Below, in pieces: positions 5,224 to 53,831 of a DNA stretch of 64,000 nt. Origin of the DNA: Acidobacteriota bacterium (GTDB lineage Bacteria > Acidobacteriota > Vicinamibacteria > Vicinamibacterales > 2-12-FULL-66-21); NCBI GenBank assembly GCA_003222675.1, contig QHWT01000075.1, positions 31,674 to 95,673 of the forward strand. Direction: 5' to 3'. Under the pieces are notes generated by a model. It was not told the origin of the DNA. It made no database searches and saw only the letters and a program-made list of their open reading frames with translations. How positions within the stretch are numbered: the first letter of the stretch is position 1; each line of letters starts with the position of its first letter. The position numbers and the translations under genes are program-made.

Positions 5224-5670
5224 GCACATCGAAGGGCGCGAGCGATCGAGCCGGCGTTCGGGGCGGGACCCACAGTTAGGACGCGCACGGCGCGTCCTGC
5301 GAGGGAGCGGAGCGGGGCGTAGGGGTCCCCGCGAGCGACCGAGCCCCCGGGGCCCCCGGCGCGTGTTTTGTGCGCGCTGGGGTGGGAGTCGGGGTGTGGG
5401 GCGGAGCCCCACGTGAGAAATGCAAAGGAGCGGGGCGTATGGGGACCCGCGAGCGACCGAGCCCCCGGGGGGCCCCGGCGCGCGTTTTGTGCGCGCTGGG
5501 GTGGGAGTCGGGGTGTGGGGCGGAGCCCCATGTGAGAAATGCAAAGGAGCGGGGCGTAGGGATCCCCGCGAGCGACCGAGTCCCCGGGGCCCCCGGCGCG
5601 CGTTTTGTGCGCGCTGGGGTGGGAGTCGGGGTGTGGGGCAGAGCCCCACGTGAGACATGCAAAGGAGCGG
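5165..5670. repeat. Tandem GC-rich repeat, about 118-119 bp x 3, between coxL and coxM
   Basis: The anchor GGAGCGGGGCGT recurs at 5309, 5427 and 5546, and GGAGCGG again at 5664, giving periods of 118, 119 and 118 bp. Each unit carries GAGCGACCGAG, a GC-rich centre, a GTGGGAGTCGGGGTGTG stretch, the hairpin GGGGC-GGA-GCCCC and ends with TGCAAAGGAGCGG. The last such end is the Shine-Dalgarno sequence of coxM. A diverged partial unit also covers 5165-5300, including the end of coxL. A related copy lies at about 10839-10920 on the other strand. Confidence 0.9.
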
Positions 5671-22981: not shown

Positions 22982-23099
22982 AATCGCGCGATTTGACGCG
23001 GGCTTCTTTCGGCTGACCTATTTTCTGGCTTCGGGCCCTGCGGCTCCAGGCTTCCGGCAAGCGAGATGAGCCGAATCGGCGCGACTCGGAAGGACTCCC

Positions 23100-23131
23100 C
23101 TGAAGCCTGAAGCCTGAACGCCGAAGCCTAT
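23100..23131. repeat. GAAGCCT heptamer array at the stop codon of the proline-rich lipoprotein
   Basis: CTGAAGC-CTGAAGC-CTGAACGCCGAAGCCTA: 7-bp repeats whose final CTA is the TAG stop codon (minus strand) of the gene ending at 23128. The same arrangement is found at the hslU stop. The rest of 22982-23099 contains no recognisable feature. Confidence 0.8.
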
Positions 23132-28112: not shown

Positions 28113-28874
28113 GTGTCCGACGACGCCATCGAAGGTTCGCCGGAGCTCGCCGGCCGTCCCTTTCAGCGAGCGATCCTGCCCGTTGAACGAGCAGCCGCGG
28201 CGCTCGAAGTCATCCTGTGCTCCGGGTTTCCCACACAACTGATCCTCATCACGGTGCTGACGACGTTCGGAATGAAGCCGGTCGTCGCGGGTGGCCAGCT
28301 CTCGCCGCCGTTCGTGTTCTCGCTGACCCTGCTCGACACGGCCGTCCTCATCGGCCTTATCCTGTTTTTCCTGCGCGCGCATCGTGAATCGCCACGCGAG
28401 ATGTTCCTCGCGGCGCGCCCGCACACGCGCGAGCTGCTGTTTGGCGTGGCGCTGATTCCCGCATCGTTCACTGTCGTCGTCGGCGTGCTGCTGCTCCTGC
28501 AACTGGTCGTCCCCGGACTCCGGAACGTGCCACGCAATCCCCTGCAGGACCTGGCGCACACGCGCGCGAACGCGGTCCTCTTCGCGGTGGTGGTGATGAT
28601 CGCCGGCGGGGTGCGAGAAGAAGTGCAACGCGCGTTCGTGCTGCGGCGCTTCGAGCAATACCTCGGCGGCGGCGCGCTCGGTCTCGTGCTCTTCAGCGTG
28701 ATCTTCGGCCTGGGCCATCTGCCGCAGGGACACGACGTGGCCATCGCCACCGCGATCCTCGGCGCGTTCTGGGGCGCGATCTACCTGCGGCGGCGCTCGA
28801 TCCTCGGTCCGATGGTCGGGCACGCCGGGTTTAATCTCGCGCAGGTGGTGAAGTTCATCATGGTCGGCGCTTGA
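28113..28874 (+). CDS. CPBP-family intramembrane metalloprotease
   Basis: A 253-residue integral membrane protein of about 6-7 helices. The CPBP (Abi/CAAX protease) motifs are present: REEVQRAFVLRRFE (EExxxR), FGLGHLPQG (the first His) and VGHAGFNLAQV (HxxxN). GTG 28113 starts the frame. Such proteases cleave membrane substrates or help in bacteriocin self-protection; the substrate is unknown. The stop codon runs into the GGTCCGA heptamer array. Confidence 0.85.
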   Translation: MSDDAIEGSPELAGRPFQRAILPVERAAAALEVILCSGFPTQLILITVLTTFGMKPVVAGGQLSPPFVFSLTLLDTAVLIGLILFFLRAHRESPREMFLAARPHTRELLFGVALIPASFTVVVGVLLLLQLVVPGLRNVPRNPLQDLAHTRANAVLFAVVVMIAGGVREEVQRAFVLRRFEQYLGGGALGLVLFSVIFGLGHLPQGHDVAIATAILGAFWGAIYLRRRSILGPMVGHAGFNLAQVVKFIMVGA

Positions 28875-28897
28875 GGTCCGAGGTCCGAGGTCCGATA
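28875..28897. repeat. GGTCCGA heptamer array starting at a stop codon
   Basis: Three 7-bp units directly after the TGA of the CPBP gene. The same family occurs at 30271-30320, 53717-53790 and, as the reverse complement, 61574-61640. Confidence 0.85.
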
Positions 28898-28913: not shown

Positions 28914-30326
28914 GTGTCTTCAGCCACACAACCGGCAGCCGTGACGCGGCGCCAATGGGTCCTGCTTTTCTGCCTGTTTCTTCTGTCGCTGCCGGCGGTC
29001 ACGACGCGGATTTATTCTTCTGACGAGATTCAGTACTTCGCTTACCTGCGATCGCTCTGGTTTGATCGCGACCTGTCGTTCGAAAACGAGTATCGCTACT
29101 TCTACGATCGGGGCATCGCGCAGTCGGAAGGATTTCACGAGACATTCCTGGAGCGTCAGACGGAAGCCGGACGCCGCGTGAACTTCGGGACGATTGGATG
29201 CGCGATCCTGTGGGCGCCGTTCTACGCGGCAGGAGATATCCTCGCGCGAGTGACGGGCATGCCGGCAGACGGTTTTTCGAAGCCGTACATCGCGGCCGTC
29301 GCATACGGCTCCGCCGTGTACGGATTCGCCGCGATCGTGTTCGCGATGCTGTCGGCCGAACGTCTCGGCCTGGCGCCGTTCGGAGCCGCGCTCGCGGTGT
29401 GGTTCGGGACGCCTCTCCTCTTTTATATGTACGTCGCGCCACCGTTCTCGCACGCGTGCTCGGCATTCGCCGTCGCGCTGTTCATGTGGACGTGGCTGAA
29501 GGTGCGCGCCTCATGGTCCATCCAAGGCGCATTCGCGCTCGGCGCCGCGGGGGCGCTGATGGCGATGATCCGCGAACAGGACCTCTTTTTTGTGGCCGGA
29601 CCTGCAGCTGATTTCGTACTAACGGGCTTCAGGCTTCAGGCTTCAGGCTTCAGGCTCGCCGCCGGAGCCGCGGGTGTGCTCGGCTTCGCGGCGGCGTACA
29701 TTCCGCAGGCGATCGTATACGTGCGGCTGAACGGGCATCTCGGGCCGTCGCGGCTGGTGACGCGAAAAATGAGCTGGCACGCGCCGCATGCCCTGCAGGT
29801 CATGTTCTCGCCGGAGCACGGGTATTTCGTGTGGACGCCGCTCGCGTTGATCGCGATCGCTGGTCTCGTGTGGCTCGCGGTCGCAACGAACCAGAGCGAC
29901 AGGCGTGTCGCCGGCTGCATGCTTCTCGTGATTGCGCTGCAGGTCTATGTCGGCGGCAGCGTGGAATCGTGGACAGTCGCGGGGGCGTTTGGCCAGAGAC
30001 GATTCATCGCGCTCACCGCGTTCCTCGTGATCGGCCTTGCCGCGTTGATGCAGGCGCGCGCGGGATTCAGGCTCCGAAAGCGCGCGACCACGGTTGTTGT
30101 CGCGCTCGCCGTGTACTGGAATCTCGCGCTGATCGCCGAGTTCGCGACGGGGCTGATGGATCGGCAACGGCTCGAGCCTGCGAAGAACGCGTACGACGCC
30201 TTCATCACGGTGCCGCGGCTGGCGCCGTCGCTGGCATATCGGTACCTGTTCGAGCGAAGCTCGTTCTATCGAGGTCCGAGGTCCGAGAGCCGAGGTCGGT
30301 CCGAGACTCGAGGTCCCAGCTCCTGA
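28914..30326 (+). CDS. Integral membrane glycosyltransferase-like protein (PMT/GT39-like)
   Basis: A 470-residue protein with about 10 predicted membrane helices, starting at GTG 28914. The early loop YSSDEIQYFAYLRSLWFDRDLSFENEYRYF contains the acidic residues expected of the first periplasmic loop of GT-C enzymes. It is homologous in layout to the second module of the fused gene at 37862 (FYYFAYLRSIAFDRDVNFNNDYRL). Four in-frame heptamers encode GFRLQASGFRL (about residues 238-250), and the C-terminus (RGPRSESRGRSETRGPSS) is encoded by GGTCCGA heptamers. It is probably involved in lipid-linked sugar transfer to a surface glycan. Confidence 0.8.
   Translation: MSSATQPAAVTRRQWVLLFCLFLLSLPAVTTRIYSSDEIQYFAYLRSLWFDRDLSFENEYRYFYDRGIAQSEGFHETFLERQTEAGRRVNFGTIGCAILWAPFYAAGDILARVTGMPADGFSKPYIAAVAYGSAVYGFAAIVFAMLSAERLGLAPFGAALAVWFGTPLLFYMYVAPPFSHACSAFAVALFMWTWLKVRASWSIQGAFALGAAGALMAMIREQDLFFVAGPAADFVLTGFRLQASGFRLAAGAAGVLGFAAAYIPQAIVYVRLNGHLGPSRLVTRKMSWHAPHALQVMFSPEHGYFVWTPLALIAIAGLVWLAVATNQSDRRVAGCMLLVIALQVYVGGSVESWTVAGAFGQRRFIALTAFLVIGLAALMQARAGFRLRKRATTVVVALAVYWNLALIAEFATGLMDRQRLEPAKNAYDAFITVPRLAPSLAYRYLFERSSFYRGPRSESRGRSETRGPSS
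29626..29657. repeat. In-frame GGCTTCA heptamer array inside the membrane glycosyltransferase
   Basis: Four perfect GGCTTCA units and a partial fifth. Because 7 is not a multiple of 3, the run cycles through the frames and encodes GFRLQASGFRL with no stop. It is the reverse complement of the TGAAGCC arrays at 23100 and 53795. Confidence 0.85.
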
Positions 30327-31554: not shown

Positions 31555-32822
31555 TCTCGCCGCGGCTGCTGTCGCTCGTTCGCTGCCCCGAGTGTCATGG
31601 CACCCTGCGAGAATCTCCTGGCGCGTTGACCTGCGGATCGTGCGGTCGCACGTACGGATCCGCGTCGGGTGATTTCCTGGATCTGAGGCCGCATGTCGCG
31701 TTCGAGGAACGCACGAAATACCTCGACGAGGCGCTCCACGCCGACGCCCGGCACGAACGTGTGTCGCCGCCGCTGCTCGGCTCGAAAATCCGCAACGACA
31801 TGTTGCGGGCCTTTCTTGCGCCCACGCCGTCGGATGTGGTCGCCGATCTTGGATGCGGCAGCGGACGCGCGCTGCTCTGGAACCGCGACTGGGGCTCGGC
31901 GACCGTCGGGATCGACATCGCGCCGTTCTTTGCGCGCGACGCGCGTCAGCAGGTGGATCTGGTGATCGGCGATCTGCGCCGCCTTCCGTTCGCGGACGCC
32001 GCCTTCACCAAAGCCTACTCGCTCGACGTGCTGGAGCACCTGTCGCCCGACGCGCTTCGCGGAATGCTGAGAGAAGCCGCACGGGTGATCGCGCCCGGCG
32101 GCTCATTGTTCGTGTACACGCACGTGCGCAAGAACGCCCGTATCGCGATGGGATTGCGCTGGGTGAATGCGCTCGCGCGCCAACTCGATCGCGCCCACCT
32201 GATCGATTTGCGGCAGGAACATCTGCGCAAGGCCGACCATCTCAATCCGCTCGCGGACATCCCGGAACTGCGGCGCGTCGCCGGCGAAACCGGTTTCCGC
32301 ATCACGCGCATCCGGTATTACACGCCGATCGTCGGCGGCTTCGTCGAGAACATCCTCGTGCGGATGGCGGAGCGGCAGCTGGCGCGCCGCGCCGCCAGGC
32401 GGCTCGCGTCGAAGATGGACGGGGCCTCGGCGGATCGACAGGCGATTAAGGAGGCGCGCAGCGCCGCGAAGGCGCAGATTGCCGCGAGCGCCGCCACCCG
32501 AGCCGCCTTCCGCGCGTTGACGGTGGCGATGAAGCTCGACTTGCTGTTGTTCGGATCGATCGAGTCCGGACCGTTCTTCGCATTGCTCGAGAAGAAGACG
32601 GAGGTTAGAGCAGACCGAGGAGACGGAAGAGACGGAGGAGACGGAGAAGAACACGAAGGAAACGGATCCAATAAACGAAGCAACGAAGGTAACGAAGGGC
32701 AACGAAGGTTTTCCTCCGTTTCTCTTCGTTTTCTCCGTTGCTTCGTTTTTGAGATCCGTTCTCTTCGTGTTCTTCGTTCTCTTCGCGTTCTTCGTGTTCT
32801 TCGTGGATGCGCGCGCCGATGA
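31551..32822 (+). CDS. SAM-dependent methyltransferase with N-terminal zinc ribbon
   Basis: 423 residues from GTG 31551. The N-terminus LLSLVRCPECHGTL....LTCGSCGRTYG is a Trm112-like zinc ribbon. The class I SAM domain follows, with motif I VVADLGCGSGRAL and post-motifs GIDIA and SLDVLEHL, VIAPGGSLFVYTH. It probably methylates a sugar or lipid in the glycan pathway. The last 70 or so residues (from EVRADRGDGRDGGDGEE) are low-complexity, encoded by 9-bp repeats, and end exactly where the next gene begins (ATGA). Confidence 0.85.
   Translation: MISPRLLSLVRCPECHGTLRESPGALTCGSCGRTYGSASGDFLDLRPHVAFEERTKYLDEALHADARHERVSPPLLGSKIRNDMLRAFLAPTPSDVVADLGCGSGRALLWNRDWGSATVGIDIAPFFARDARQQVDLVIGDLRRLPFADAAFTKAYSLDVLEHLSPDALRGMLREAARVIAPGGSLFVYTHVRKNARIAMGLRWVNALARQLDRAHLIDLRQEHLRKADHLNPLADIPELRRVAGETGFRITRIRYYTPIVGGFVENILVRMAERQLARRAARRLASKMDGASADRQAIKEARSAAKAQIAASAATRAAFRALTVAMKLDLLLFGSIESGPFFALLEKKTEVRADRGDGRDGGDGEEHEGNGSNKRSNEGNEGQRRFSSVSLRFLRCFVFEIRSLRVLRSLRVLRVLRGCARR
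32590..32812 (+). repeat. 9-bp repeats forming a long hairpin at the methyltransferase 3' end
   Basis: Left arm: GAGGAGACG, then AACGAAGGT-type 9-bp units; right arm: TTCGTGTTC-type units in inverse complement. Perfect pairs are 32649-32658/32763-32772 (10 bp), 32661-32668/32753-32760 (8 bp) and 32673-32685/32736-32748 (13 bp), enclosing a loop of about 50 nt. All of it is translated as the methyltransferase tail. Confidence 0.85.
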
Positions 32823-35202: not shown

Positions 35203-36440
35203 AAGTTGCGCTCGTCGCCCGATCGGTCTTTCCCATCCACGGATACGGCGGCCTCGAACGTCATGTCTACGATCTCGCCCGCGCGCTTGCTGAGCGCGAC
35301 GTGCGTGTCACGCTCATCACGCGGCCGCCCGCGCGCGGGCGCGAGTGGCACCGCTCCTCAATTCACGAGGCGGTGATCGCCGAGTTTGTTCCGTATCACA
35401 CCTTCCCGTTCGCCGGCCGGCGCGGCACGACCGTGCTCGATCGCAGCACGGCATATCCGCTGTTCGGCCTGCGCGCGGGCCGACGCGCACTGGATCTCGT
35501 CCGCCGTGGCGATGCGGAGATCGTCCATGGCCTCGGCGGCAGCGTCATCGGCTACGCGCGCGAGCGTGCGACTGCTGGCGCGCCGCTCGTGCTCAACCCG
35601 CAGGGCCTCGAGGAGTTTGGCGCGACGGACCCGTCCCGCGCGAAGCTGAAGCGCGCCGTGTACTTGCCGCTCCGCCGCGCGGTGCTCGCATGTGCGGCCG
35701 CCGCAGATGCGGTGATCGCAACCGATCGCACCCTGGAACCGGTCGTCATGCGCCATTTGAAGATCGACGCGAGCAAGGTGCATACGATTCCCAACGCGCT
35801 CGACCTCCCCGCCATCGATTCGCTGACGGATCCGGCATTGATTGGCGAGCTGCGGCGGCGGCACGGGATCGCCGCCGGTGAAGTCGTGCTCCTGAGCGCC
35901 GGACGGCTCGAGAAGAACAAGGGATTTCAGGTGCTGTTGCACGCGCTCGCGGCCGTGCGCGATCTGAGCAGCCTCGAAGGACGATCGTGGCGGTGGATTT
36001 CGATCGGCGACGGGCCGTATCGCGATCGGCTGCAGTCGCTCGCGCGCGATCTCTCGCTCGGCGATCGCGTGCGGTTCCAGGGGCGCGTCAGCGATGCCGA
36101 GATGCACGCATGGCACGAGATCTCGACGCTCTTCGTACACCCGACGCTCTACGAGGGGAGCTCGCTCGTCACCCTCGAAGCGATGGCGCATCGCCGCGCC
36201 GTGGTCGCGTCGGCTGCCGGCGGACTCCCGGACAAGGTGCGTCCCGGCATCAACGGCTGGCTCGTCGCGCCGGGTGAGGCGGGCGGGCTCGCCGCAGCGA
36301 TCAGTGGCGCCCTCTCCGACACGGCACGACTCGAACGCTATGGCCGCGAGGGTCGAGGGATCGTGGAGCGCGAGTTCTCGTGGCGCGCAGCGGGCGACGC
36401 GACCGTCGCGCTCTACAGGTTACTATTGCGTCTGCAGTGA
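35199..36440 (+). CDS. GT4-family glycosyltransferase
   Basis: 413 residues from GTG 35199 (KVALVARSVFPIHGYGGLERHVYDLARALAERDVRVTLIT). The Gly-rich loop GYGGLERH and the donor site (LLSAGRLEKNKGFQVLLHAL, LFVHPTLYEGSSLVTLEAMAHRRAVVASAAGGLPDKV with E-x7-E) are intact. It overlaps the preceding stop (GTGA) and the next gene's GTG (36437), continuing the operon. Confidence 0.92.
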   Translation: MKVALVARSVFPIHGYGGLERHVYDLARALAERDVRVTLITRPPARGREWHRSSIHEAVIAEFVPYHTFPFAGRRGTTVLDRSTAYPLFGLRAGRRALDLVRRGDAEIVHGLGGSVIGYARERATAGAPLVLNPQGLEEFGATDPSRAKLKRAVYLPLRRAVLACAAAADAVIATDRTLEPVVMRHLKIDASKVHTIPNALDLPAIDSLTDPALIGELRRRHGIAAGEVVLLSAGRLEKNKGFQVLLHALAAVRDLSSLEGRSWRWISIGDGPYRDRLQSLARDLSLGDRVRFQGRVSDAEMHAWHEISTLFVHPTLYEGSSLVTLEAMAHRRAVVASAAGGLPDKVRPGINGWLVAPGEAGGLAAAISGALSDTARLERYGREGRGIVEREFSWRAAGDATVALYRLLLRLQ

Positions 36441-39400
36441 CTCGCCTCTTCGAGCGCTTGCCGCCCGATCTCTCCTGCATCCGGCGCGCGCGCACCGGAC
36501 TCCTGCTCGCGTTGGTTGCCGCCGCCTTGCTTCGCTTCTGGGGTCTGCCGCACGGCATCCCGTTCAGCGTCGGCGTGGACGAGCCGGAAATCATGGACCG
36601 CGCGGTCCGCATGATGAAGACCGGCGACTTCAACCCGCACTTCTACGACTATCCATCGCTCTACATCTACGTGCAGGTGATCGTCGCGATCGCGCGCTTC
36701 ATCACCGGCGCCGCCGCGGGCAGGTGGGCCTCGCTTGCGCAGGCCTCGACCTTCGATTTTTACGTGTGGGGCCGCGCCGTGACCGCGATCATGGGGACCG
36801 CGACAGTGTGGCTGGTCTACAACGCGGGGCTGCGGTGGGGACATCGCACGGCGGTCCTCGCAGCCGCGGTAATGTCGGTGATGCCGATGCACGTGCGCGA
36901 GTCGCACTACGTGCTCACCGACGTGCCCGCGACGTTTTTGGTGACGCTGACGCTTCTGCTCTCCCTGCGCGCGAGCGAGCGGCCACGGATGCGATCGTTT
37001 GTGCTGGCCGGCGTCGCGGCGGGCCTTGCTACCGCGACGAAGTACAATGGCGTGCTCGCCATCACCATGCCGCTCATCGCGTGCGTGATGACACCGTCAA
37101 CAGCGATCGCTCGCCTTCACGCGGCGCTCGCGGCACTCGCGGCATGCGTCGCAGCCTTCTCGTCACAGTTCAGGAACCAGACGGTCATCGGATCGATCCC
37201 GGTGATCTATCTCAAGCATCTTCGTAATGCCTTCCACTGGCCCTCCAGTCTTCTCGTGCTGGTCGGACTGGGACTCGGAATCGCTCGTGCGGGCGCGGGC
37301 CCTGAGCGTCTGAAATGGATGCTCGCGATCGCGTTCCCTCTCCTGTATTTCTGGTTCATCTCGTACCAGCACATCGTGTTCGGCCGCTACCTGCTGCCAG
37401 TCATCCCCTTCCTGGCGCTGCTCGCGGCGGCCGCCGTCGTGTGGATTATCAACCGCGTGCCGCGCTCGCGCGTCCCGCGCGGGCTGCGACCGGCGATGGC
37501 AGCGGGCCTGATGCTGCTCGCCGTCGTTCCCGTCTCGATCGATGCGGTCAGGTTCGACGCCGACCTCTCACGAACGTGGACGACCGAGATGGCGTACCAA
37601 TGGGTGCTGACGAACGTCCCGGCGGGAACGTCAATAACGATCGAGAGCCGCAACCTCCTGCTGCCGCCCAGCTACAAGAGCAGCAACGTCCCACAACTCC
37701 GGATCCACTCGGCCGCGGAGTACGCCGCCAGCGGCGTCGACTACCTCGTCGCATCCTCGCAGTCCTATGGCGCGTTTACCGCCGACCCGCACAGGTATCC
37801 GGACGAGTACCGTGATTATCGAACACCCCGGTCCCGAATTGCGCGTGTTGAAGGTGATGCGATGACCGGACGGATCGTCGCCTGGATGATCATCGTGGTG
37901 ACGGCGCTCGAACTGTGTGCGCGCGAGGCCGCGCGCCGGTCGATCGTGCAGGCCGCGATCGGGCGAACGCCGGGACTGGCGAGCCTCGTCCTGGTTGCGT
38001 CGGTCGCGGCGCTCGCGACTATCGTCGCCACACCTCGCCGCGGCCATGCTGCGATCCTGCTTGCGGCGCTCTTCTGCGCGGGTGTCGCCGCGCAACTCTC
38101 GCTCGGCGCACGGTTGCAGAGTGACGGGTTCTATTACTTCGCCTATCTGCGGTCGATCGCTTTCGATCGTGATGTCAATTTCAACAACGACTACCGCCTG
38201 CTGGGACTCGGCGACAAGACCAACCTGTTCAACGCGACACCCACCGGCTACGCGCAGTCGGCGGCGACAATCGGTCCGGCGATCGTGTGGAGTCCGTTCT
38301 TTGCTGCCGGACACGTGATCGCGGTGCGGCTGCAGGCCTCCGGCGCGGCCGTCGCCGTCGATGGCACGTCGTATCCGTACCGTCAGGCTATCTGCGTCGC
38401 AAGCCTTGCCTACGGGTTGCTCGGCTGCTGGTTCGCGTATCGCCTCACTCGCCGATACGCAGCCGCGGGAATCGCCGTCGCGGCCGTCGCGATCGTGACG
38501 GCCGGATCGTTCATGTTGTGGTACTTCGTGAGGGAACCGAGCATGACCCACGCCACGTCCATGGCAGCGGTCGCCGGCTTCGCGTGGCTGTGGGCGGCAT
38601 CGCGCGACAGGCGCACACTCGTGCAGTGGGCGCTGCTTGGCGCCGTCGCCGGGCTGATGTCGATGATCCGCTGGCAGAACGCGCTCTTCATGCTGCTGCC
38701 GGCGTGCGATGCGGTGCCTGCGCTCGCGCGCGCGTGGCGCGCACGAGACCGTCACGCGGCACGGGTGCTCGTCACGGGTTGCGCGATCTTCCTCACATGC
38801 ACGGTGGTCGCGTTCGTTCCGCAGATGATCGCGTGGAAGTCGATCTACGGCTCCTACATTGCGCGGTCCCCCATCGGCCCGCAAATCTGGTGGACGAATC
38901 CACGGGTGGTGGACATCCTCTGGTCGGCGCGCAACGGCCTGTTCAGCACGTCGCCGGTCCTGTACCTCGCCGCACTGGGTCTCATTGTCTTTGCGTATAT
39001 CCGGCCGGCGATCGGCGTACCCGCGCTTCTGGCTATCGCGGTCATGACCTACTTCAACGCGTGCATCCAGGATTGGTGGGGGAGCGCGGCGTTTGGCGGC
39101 CGTCGGTTCGACGGCACCATCCCGCTCTTCGCGGTCGGCGCTGCGGCGTTCATCGAGGCCGGCGCGGCGGTGGCCCGTCGACACGCCGCCGCGTTCATCA
39201 TCACCGCGCTCGCCGTCCTCGTCGTCTGGAACATCGCGCTGATGAGTGCGGCGCAGGCCGGCGTGGTCCGGATCGGCGAGACAGTGAAATTCGATCGCGC
39301 CTGGGCAGCGCAGGCGCGCGAAGTGCACGCGTGGTTCGGCAACCCGTTCACGTACCCGGCCAGCCTGGTGTTCGCGCTGCGCAATGGCGTATCGCCGGCT

Positions 39401-39850
39401 GAGTACGATTTACTCTCGACCAACCGGTTCCTCTCCGATCCGCTGCAGCCGAACGCCCGCGTCGATATCGGCGGGGGTGATGAATGGGTGGTCGAGGGGG
39501 GGATGGGCGCAGTCAACCGCCGTGCTGCGCGTTCCGCTCGATCACCGAGATGCGCTTCACGTGGAGGTCAGGCTGCACGCCTTCGCATATCCGGGCGCGC
39601 CGCCGCAGACGCTGACGCTGTCGGCGCGGGGACATCCGTGCGGGCCATTGCCAATCGGACCCGCATGGCAGACCGTCGAGTGCGTTGTCGATGCCACGGC
39701 GTGGCGCTCGGGCGTCAACCATCTGTCGCTGACGTTCGCGTGGGCACGCCGCCCGGCGGACGTCGGCCTTGGCGGCGATGCGCGTCCGCTCGCCGCCGCG
39801 ATCGATTACGTGAGGATCGCGGTCGCGCGTTAAGTTGCCTTCCCGCCTGA
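36437..39850 (+). CDS. Two membrane glycosyltransferases (GT-C) fused in one frame
   Basis: One open frame of 1137 residues from GTG 36437 contains two separate GT-C proteins. Module 1 (residues 1-475) has VGVDEPEIMDRAVRMMKTGDFNPHFYDYPSLYIYVQ, TDVPATF and YQHIVFGRYLLPVIPF, typical of the GT39/ArnT-like dolichyl-phosphate-sugar group. Module 2 starts at the former ATG 37862 and resembles the protein at 28914. The fusion results from a small deletion near 37822: in another frame the bases before the old ATGA junction read IEHPGPELRVLKVMR-stop, the usual end of module 1 proteins. The last 115 or so residues after EGG are out of frame because of a 7-G tract (39496-39502). Confidence 0.75.
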   Translation: MTRLFERLPPDLSCIRRARTGLLLALVAAALLRFWGLPHGIPFSVGVDEPEIMDRAVRMMKTGDFNPHFYDYPSLYIYVQVIVAIARFITGAAAGRWASLAQASTFDFYVWGRAVTAIMGTATVWLVYNAGLRWGHRTAVLAAAVMSVMPMHVRESHYVLTDVPATFLVTLTLLLSLRASERPRMRSFVLAGVAAGLATATKYNGVLAITMPLIACVMTPSTAIARLHAALAALAACVAAFSSQFRNQTVIGSIPVIYLKHLRNAFHWPSSLLVLVGLGLGIARAGAGPERLKWMLAIAFPLLYFWFISYQHIVFGRYLLPVIPFLALLAAAAVVWIINRVPRSRVPRGLRPAMAAGLMLLAVVPVSIDAVRFDADLSRTWTTEMAYQWVLTNVPAGTSITIESRNLLLPPSYKSSNVPQLRIHSAAEYAASGVDYLVASSQSYGAFTADPHRYPDEYRDYRTPRSRIARVEGDAMTGRIVAWMIIVVTALELCAREAARRSIVQAAIGRTPGLASLVLVASVAALATIVATPRRGHAAILLAALFCAGVAAQLSLGARLQSDGFYYFAYLRSIAFDRDVNFNNDYRLLGLGDKTNLFNATPTGYAQSAATIGPAIVWSPFFAAGHVIAVRLQASGAAVAVDGTSYPYRQAICVASLAYGLLGCWFAYRLTRRYAAAGIAVAAVAIVTAGSFMLWYFVREPSMTHATSMAAVAGFAWLWAASRDRRTLVQWALLGAVAGLMSMIRWQNALFMLLPACDAVPALARAWRARDRHAARVLVTGCAIFLTCTVVAFVPQMIAWKSIYGSYIARSPIGPQIWWTNPRVVDILWSARNGLFSTSPVLYLAALGLIVFAYIRPAIGVPALLAIAVMTYFNACIQDWWGSAAFGGRRFDGTIPLFAVGAAAFIEAGAAVARRHAAAFIITALAVLVVWNIALMSAAQAGVVRIGETVKFDRAWAAQAREVHAWFGNPFTYPASLVFALRNGVSPAEYDLLSTNRFLSDPLQPNARVDIGGGDEWVVEGGMGAVNRRAARSARSPRCASRGGQAARLRISGRAAADADAVGAGTSVRAIANRTRMADRRVRCRCHGVALGRQPSVADVRVGTPPGGRRPWRRCASARRRDRLREDRGRALSCLPA
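39496..39833 (+). pseudogene. Out-of-frame C-terminal domain of the second GT-C module
   Basis: With one G fewer in the 7-G run, the protein would read VVEGGWAQSTAVLRVPLDHRDALHVEVRLHAFAYPG...AWQTVECVVDATAWRSGVNHLSLTFAWARRP...AIDYVRIAVAR and stop at 39833. That is a beta-rich C-terminal domain with normal codon use. The annotated frame instead gives Arg-rich sequence to 39850. It is either a sequencing or assembly error at the homopolymer or a real frameshift. Confidence 0.7.
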
Positions 39851-53709: not shown

Positions 53710-53716
53710 TCCAAGC

Positions 53717-53829
53717 CGAAGTCCGAGGTCTGAACGGCCGACGTCCGAGGTCAGAGGTCAGAGGTCCGAGGTCCGAGGTCCGAGGTCCGAACCTTGAAGC
53801 CTGAAGCCTGAAGCCCCGAAGCCCGAAGC

Positions 53830-53831
<2 letters not shown>
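53717..53831. repeat. GGTCCGA and GAAGCCT heptamer arrays overlapping the hslU stop
   Basis: 53717-53790 carries eight to nine GGTCCGA-like 7-bp units (some GGTCAGA); 53795-53831 carries TGAAGCC units. The last unit, CGAAGCCTA, contains the hslU stop codon (TAG on the minus strand, 53832-53830), just as at 23128. Confidence 0.88.

Follow-up and report, generated by a model that had tools for sequence, protein, structure and literature searches.

Heptamers are the most abundant repeat class in most repeat-rich prokaryote genomes (Mrazek 2007, as cited in PMC4679880). Longer repeat units are frequent in the large GC-rich genomes of non-pathogens, and slippage via a 7-nt polymerase contact has been proposed (both Mrazek 2007, as cited in PMC4679880 and PMC4692102). 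TAACTGA repeats have been described in Beggiatoaceae, Cyanobacteria, and Bacteroidetes, with some in-frame ORF copies that are mainly positioned at the protein periphery (MacGregor 2015, PMC4679880), and GGGNATC repeats in Xanthomonas and Nostoc, for which the authors judged phase variation unlikely (Rehm 2015, PMC4692102). By these accounts (Mrazek 2007; MacGregor 2015; Rehm 2015), heptamer-rich genomes as such are already known. In Haemophilus influenzae, the number of heptamers is described to alter expression; two tracts lie within ORFs, in-ORF tracts of 8-14 units were proposed for phase variation, and an octamer with 4-6 units was considered too short and too invariable to be a classical phase-variable locus (PMC2651432). 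A limited literature search yielded no paper that joins heptanucleotide repeats with Acidobacteria.

We analyzed a window of 64,000 nucleotides from an Acidobacteriota genome, in which a perfect heptanucleotide array lies inside an open reading frame (Table 1). The array consists of four whole GGCTTCA units followed by GGCT (32 bp, 100% matches, TRF score 64), in agreement with the initial annotation, which had described four such units in an open frame and had placed them at 29626-29657, one base off. The first base of the array coincides with a codon boundary. As the unit length of 7 is not divisible by 3, the encoded peptide uses each of the three reading frames in turn, and the unit is stop-free in every frame of this strand. 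In total, GGCTTCA occurs 24 times in the window, compared to 6.55 expected occurrences. The window contains 12 period-7 runs of at least 10 matched bases. In 20 second-order Markov resamples, such runs numbered 0.15 on average and never more than 1, and in the window each of the periods 4, 5, 6, 8, 9, 10, 11, 12, and 13 gave 0-2 runs. No short period other than 7 is strongly over-represented there. A second array in the same gene codes for its C-terminal tail, which is not common to the aligned orthologues. At 5309-5670, between two called genes, the window also carries a 118-bp tandem repeat with 3.1 copies and 93% matches.

Table 1. Positions of the arrays and their genes. Positions refer to the window unless a contig and locus of this genome (G000) are given.
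Feature	Position	Strand	Remarks
Host gene	28914..30326	+	470 aa, GTG start; predicted GT-C-fold membrane glycosyltransferase, ArnT fold match, without family-library hit
GGCTTCA array	29625..29656	+	x 4.57, perfect, in frame, residues 238-248 (GFRLQASGFRL)
CGAGGTC heptamer-type array	30270..30315	+	codes for C-terminal tail of host gene
GAGGTCC array	28873..28895	+	x 3.3, overlaps stop codon of upstream gene (28113-28874)
GGCTTCA-unit array, opposite strand	23099..23118	-	intergenic
Composite array	53716..53831	-	intergenic; CCGAGGT x 10.6, then TGAAGCC (GGCTTCA on the opposite strand) x 5
tilS	G000:C126:183731-185275 (L095:3731-5275)		in-frame insertion, mainly CGAGGTC-type heptamers
nagA	G000:C6:166787-168055 (L059:6787-8055)		32-bp CGGACCT array at linker

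The initial annotation had called the gene product a membrane glycosyltransferase. No Pfam or NCBIfam model matches the protein, only 3 of the 23 members of the homologue alignment weakly match PMT_2, and no solved structure related by sequence was found at E-values up to 1. The designation agrees with the predicted fold, as an AlphaFold2 model built from 23 sequences (pLDDT 86.7, pTM 0.89) could be superimposed on ArnT (5f15) with a Z-score of 23.6 and an rmsd of 3.9 over 341 aligned residues. The top Foldseek match of the model was ALG12 (E 1.5e-4). By its fold, and by this only, the host protein is a predicted GT-C-fold membrane glycosyltransferase. In the model, a turn at residues 241-243 connects helix 221-240 with helix 244-273. 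The previous placement of the array in a loop is therefore nearly right for the predicted turn, but the array also codes for the end of the first and the start of the second of these helices. According to the positive-inside rule, loops rich in Arg and Lys face the cytoplasm. As the loops of the homologues at this site are Arg/Lys-rich, the array-bearing turn probably faces the cytoplasm and would lie away from the catalytic face. Genes for GT4 glycosyltransferases, a methyltransferase, and a protein with two PMT_2 stretches follow downstream, and the host gene is therefore likely part of a glycan cluster. The PMT_2 protein (1137 aa, 36437-39850) contains at about 38066-39265 a distant homologue (35%) of the host gene. 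Nine-base repeats at 32608-32805 cover the 3' end of a methyltransferase gene and code for a long low-complexity tail.

It had been suggested that a gain or loss of one unit would shift the frame and that the present number of units keeps the gene open, and both statements are borne out: the array is in frame inside the 470-aa ORF, the loss of one GGCTTCA unit results in a protein that ends at 269 aa, the gain of one unit leads to a wrong-frame product of 508 aa, and the frame is kept by three-unit changes only. It was therefore in principle conceivable that slippage of the array switches the glycosyltransferase off and on, which would cause cell-to-cell variation of a surface glycan. Beyond the frame arithmetic, this idea agrees with the position of the gene among glycosyltransferase and methyltransferase genes, with the precedent of in-ORF heptamer tracts with frameshifts described for H. 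influenzae (PMC2651432), and with the probably young age of the array, which is perfect and missing in the congener. However, the 4.57 units are fewer than the 8-14 units described for the in-ORF tracts of H. influenzae (PMC2651432), and the evidence from the other arrays of the genome and from the orthologues, given below, points in the same direction. We consider a switch unlikely. If it were one, an uncultivated lineage would have a contingency locus here, which the evidence does not favor.

To place the array in its genomic context, we examined 2.04 Mb of the 7.16-Mb genome, namely stretches on 17 of the 152 contigs with 1587 genes (84.5% coding) that were called ab initio by a codon-usage script. 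These contigs were chosen via (GGCTTCA)2 or homologue hits, and the density of GGCTTCA may therefore be slightly raised. When neighbors within 25 nt were merged, 198 period-7 arrays were obtained, of which 158 were intergenic, 37 coding, and three at contig ends. With respect to the coding share of the sample, the density was about 24 times higher between genes than inside. The arrays use 72 distinct units, and they are mostly short, with two whole units in 98 and four in 25 of the 198 arrays; the longest has twelve. The preference for the period is strong also in 797 kb of the genome, with 107 runs at period 7 and 2-16 at the periods 4-6 and 8-13. The GGCTTCA array thus belongs by length, period-7 excess, and non-coding bias to the heptanucleotide long simple sequence repeats, and the switch that had been proposed concerns a member of a common and mostly intergenic repeat class.

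The comparison genomes comprised one genome per species and included one other genome of the genus (congener G001). Among the sampled relatives, a period-7 enrichment with other units was found in two members of the same family (13 runs per 100 kb in G008 and 7.5 in G010). In G014 and G015, which belong to the same order, such runs were few, with 1 and 2 per 100 kb, respectively. The dimer (GGCTTCA)2 was detected at 41 places in this genome (0 with the backwards control) and in 2 of 11 other family genomes, but not in the congener. Similarly, (GGACCTC)2 was present at 169 places (control 6); of 98 other genomes from the phylum, 4 had it at 1-2 places each. These distributions show that the heptamer units expand lineage by lineage.

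The intergenic bias would also be expected if the heptamer arrays were functional DNA or RNA elements, such as binding sites, quadruplexes, or translational control elements, of which the copy in the host gene would be a stray one. Roles of this kind have been proposed for the TAACTGA (PMC4679880) and GGGNATC (PMC4692102) heptamers, and arrays are mildly enriched within 30 nt of an upstream stop codon (48 versus 30.9 expected). However, no excess was seen near start codons (30 versus 30.9 expected), no consistent sense/antisense preference was seen among the ten units with at least three scorable arrays, and a regulatory element was therefore indicated neither by start-codon placement nor by strand preference. 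As the arrays in addition use so many distinct units, and as an Rfam scan of the window gave no structured-RNA match, we regard functional elements as very unlikely.

As a switch could be revealed by arrays that are caught in the off state, we analyzed the frames on both sides of the arrays. Arrays qualified for this frame test if both 150-nt flanks were open and coding-like on one strand, which makes the test insensitive: 10 of the 198 arrays qualified, and the 188 that did not include the array of tilS. In eight of the ten cases the flanks were in the same frame, one of these being two abutting genes, and the two exceptions were both at gene ends. Hence, within the reach of this test no gene was seen to be broken at an array, which may speak against switching.

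We also examined which genes carry arrays in their interior, defined as TRF rows at least 90 nt away from both gene ends. Ten such rows were found at period 7, 0 at period 8, 1 at period 10, 0 at period 11, and 1 at period 13. TRF may list one array at several periods, but the ten period-7 rows correspond to ten different genes. These code for TilS, NagA, an M56 (BlaR1-type) peptidase, a DNA methylase, a protein kinase with PEGA domains, a class A-type penicillin-binding protein, an ArnT-like PMT_2 protein, two glycosyltransferases with the array near the C-terminus, and the GT-C protein studied here. In one of the glycosyltransferase genes (C151), the part downstream of the array scores as non-coding. 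As three of the hosts besides the present gene look like glycosyltransferases, some excess of arrays in glycan genes is conceivable. The gene of the M56 peptidase (G000:C22:267401-270304) has about 17 degenerate copies of a heptamer immediately ahead of its peptidase match. Mid-gene arrays did not follow a 1 + 3n rule for the number of units, as their lengths were 23, 23, 28, 32, 32, and 41.

The occurrence of such arrays in tilS, nagA, the penicillin-binding protein gene, and others argues against a switch, and tilS is the most instructive case. The gene is single-copy, as its product is the sole full-length match in the genome, and it matches both TilS equivalog-domain models. Its insertion of about 40 residues is missing in all 12 relatives that span the site, including the congener; one of them, G016, has a shorter stretch of its own in or beside the TilS linker, with GTCTCAC x 2.9 as its heptamer. 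As tilS is described as essential in other organisms (PMC10128029) and must stay on, its array is not used as a switch. At the NagA linker, the stretch of the congener is shorter and unrelated, and in G003 this site holds degenerate sequence that resembles heptamers (LGPRSSDLGHRSSD-like).

The orthologues of the host gene were compared in 26 rows, which represent 25 distinct loci and one duplicate (L088 = L010). Period-7 runs with at least 7 matched bases were present in just four rows, and two of these were 14-base runs of chance length, which does not agree with a conserved switch. The other two were 20-base runs. In G015, GCGGGAT x 2.9 lies in frame in another loop. In G003, a TAAAGCC-type array of 2.9 units lies in frame in the loop that is homologous to the GGCTTCA site, and this is the only other array in that loop, but it has a different unit and is on the other strand. 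The GGCTTCA unit is thus not conserved at this position, and the orthologue of the congener G001 is without a heptamer array. A third loop of the congener orthologue (L009:976-2475) contains a 45-bp in-frame minisatellite (SVPVASGFSRKLGFQ-like). A contig search for the gene in further strains gave 23 loci, none of which was the gene of this species.

The loop D233-P264 has 32 residues here, 31 in the congener, and 30-41 in 22 aligned homologues, so the loop that the array fills is of normal length. A simple insertion of three units does not agree with this, as the loop is hardly longer than that of the congener; replacement or compensation would be needed. The turn between two helices and its variable length among the homologues could mean that the repeat-coded peptide was selected because it affects the enzyme, for instance as a loop for regulation or assembly. 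However, the loop sequence is different in every aligned homologue, and the congener has an unrelated loop of nearly equal length, which makes a selected peptide highly improbable.

In our judgment, the array is quite probably a lineage-specific heptanucleotide repeat expansion that is tolerated as an in-frame spacer in a gene that is simply on. This draws on the observed repeat class, its period and intergenic bias, and the in-frame arrays in unrelated genes, as well as on a loop length within the range of the homologues and the absence of the array in the congener. A process with a strong preference for 7-base steps, probably replication slippage or unequal exchange, would create and lengthen tandem arrays of many units. 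Nearly all arrays that survive would be those between genes or at gene ends, and inside genes arrays would survive only when they keep the frame and where the protein tolerates foreign residues. Here, the tolerated site would be the turn between two membrane helices, with GFRLQASGFRL as the spacer. We infer that the GGCTTCA array does not switch. Single-unit growth passes through out-of-frame states, which a purely passive model would have to account for: either three units changed in one step, or an indel compensated for the shift, or the gene was off for a time, and the length has thus changed at least once. Such a past change fits a slow unselected process or a rarely used switch, of which the first is favored, and the array could still change its length slowly or rarely.

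A possible but rather doubtful generalization is that the lineage has a generator, specific for period 7 and blind to the unit, that feeds peptide segments into proteins. Arrays would recurrently enter the same linkers of orthologues across genera, would be kept in frame by selection, and would decay to ordinary sequence, so that simple repeats would contribute to the evolution of linkers, also in genes that are essential. The cases in point are the glycosyltransferase loop and the NagA linker (this genome and G003, degenerate in the latter for NagA), and the TilS linker (this genome and G016, in or beside the linker). As a spacer, the array shows that a non-triplet repeat can persist inside genes, tilS included, and the whole set of arrays is tractable for the questions of why the step has precisely seven bases and how often repeats become protein sequence.

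With respect to known systems, no Acidobacteriota family is named in the accounts of the long repeats of Mrazek (2007) cited above, and what is added here are in-frame arrays in the middle of genes, including genes of an essential type. Like the TAACTGA repeats as described (PMC4679880), the arrays have a period of 7 and are mostly intergenic. Unlike these, which have a single unit and are mostly found just before start codons, they have many units and no start-codon preference, and the array of the host gene, with its unit GGCTTCA, is not of the TAACTGA type. Like the GGGNATC repeats, the arrays are over-represented between genes, often near stop codons, and associated with genes of all functional classes, whereas the G-tract consensus of GGGNATC, which can form quadruplexes (PMC4692102), has no counterpart in GGCTTCA. 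The H. influenzae tracts are reported with 8-38 units and differences between strains (PMC2651432), compared to 4.57 units in one genome here. The Rickettsia palindromic elements are described as palindromic and about 150 bp long (PMC10969869), in contrast to the tandem heptamers studied here, but they, too, are repeat DNA that lies in frame in unrelated genes and is tolerated by the proteins.
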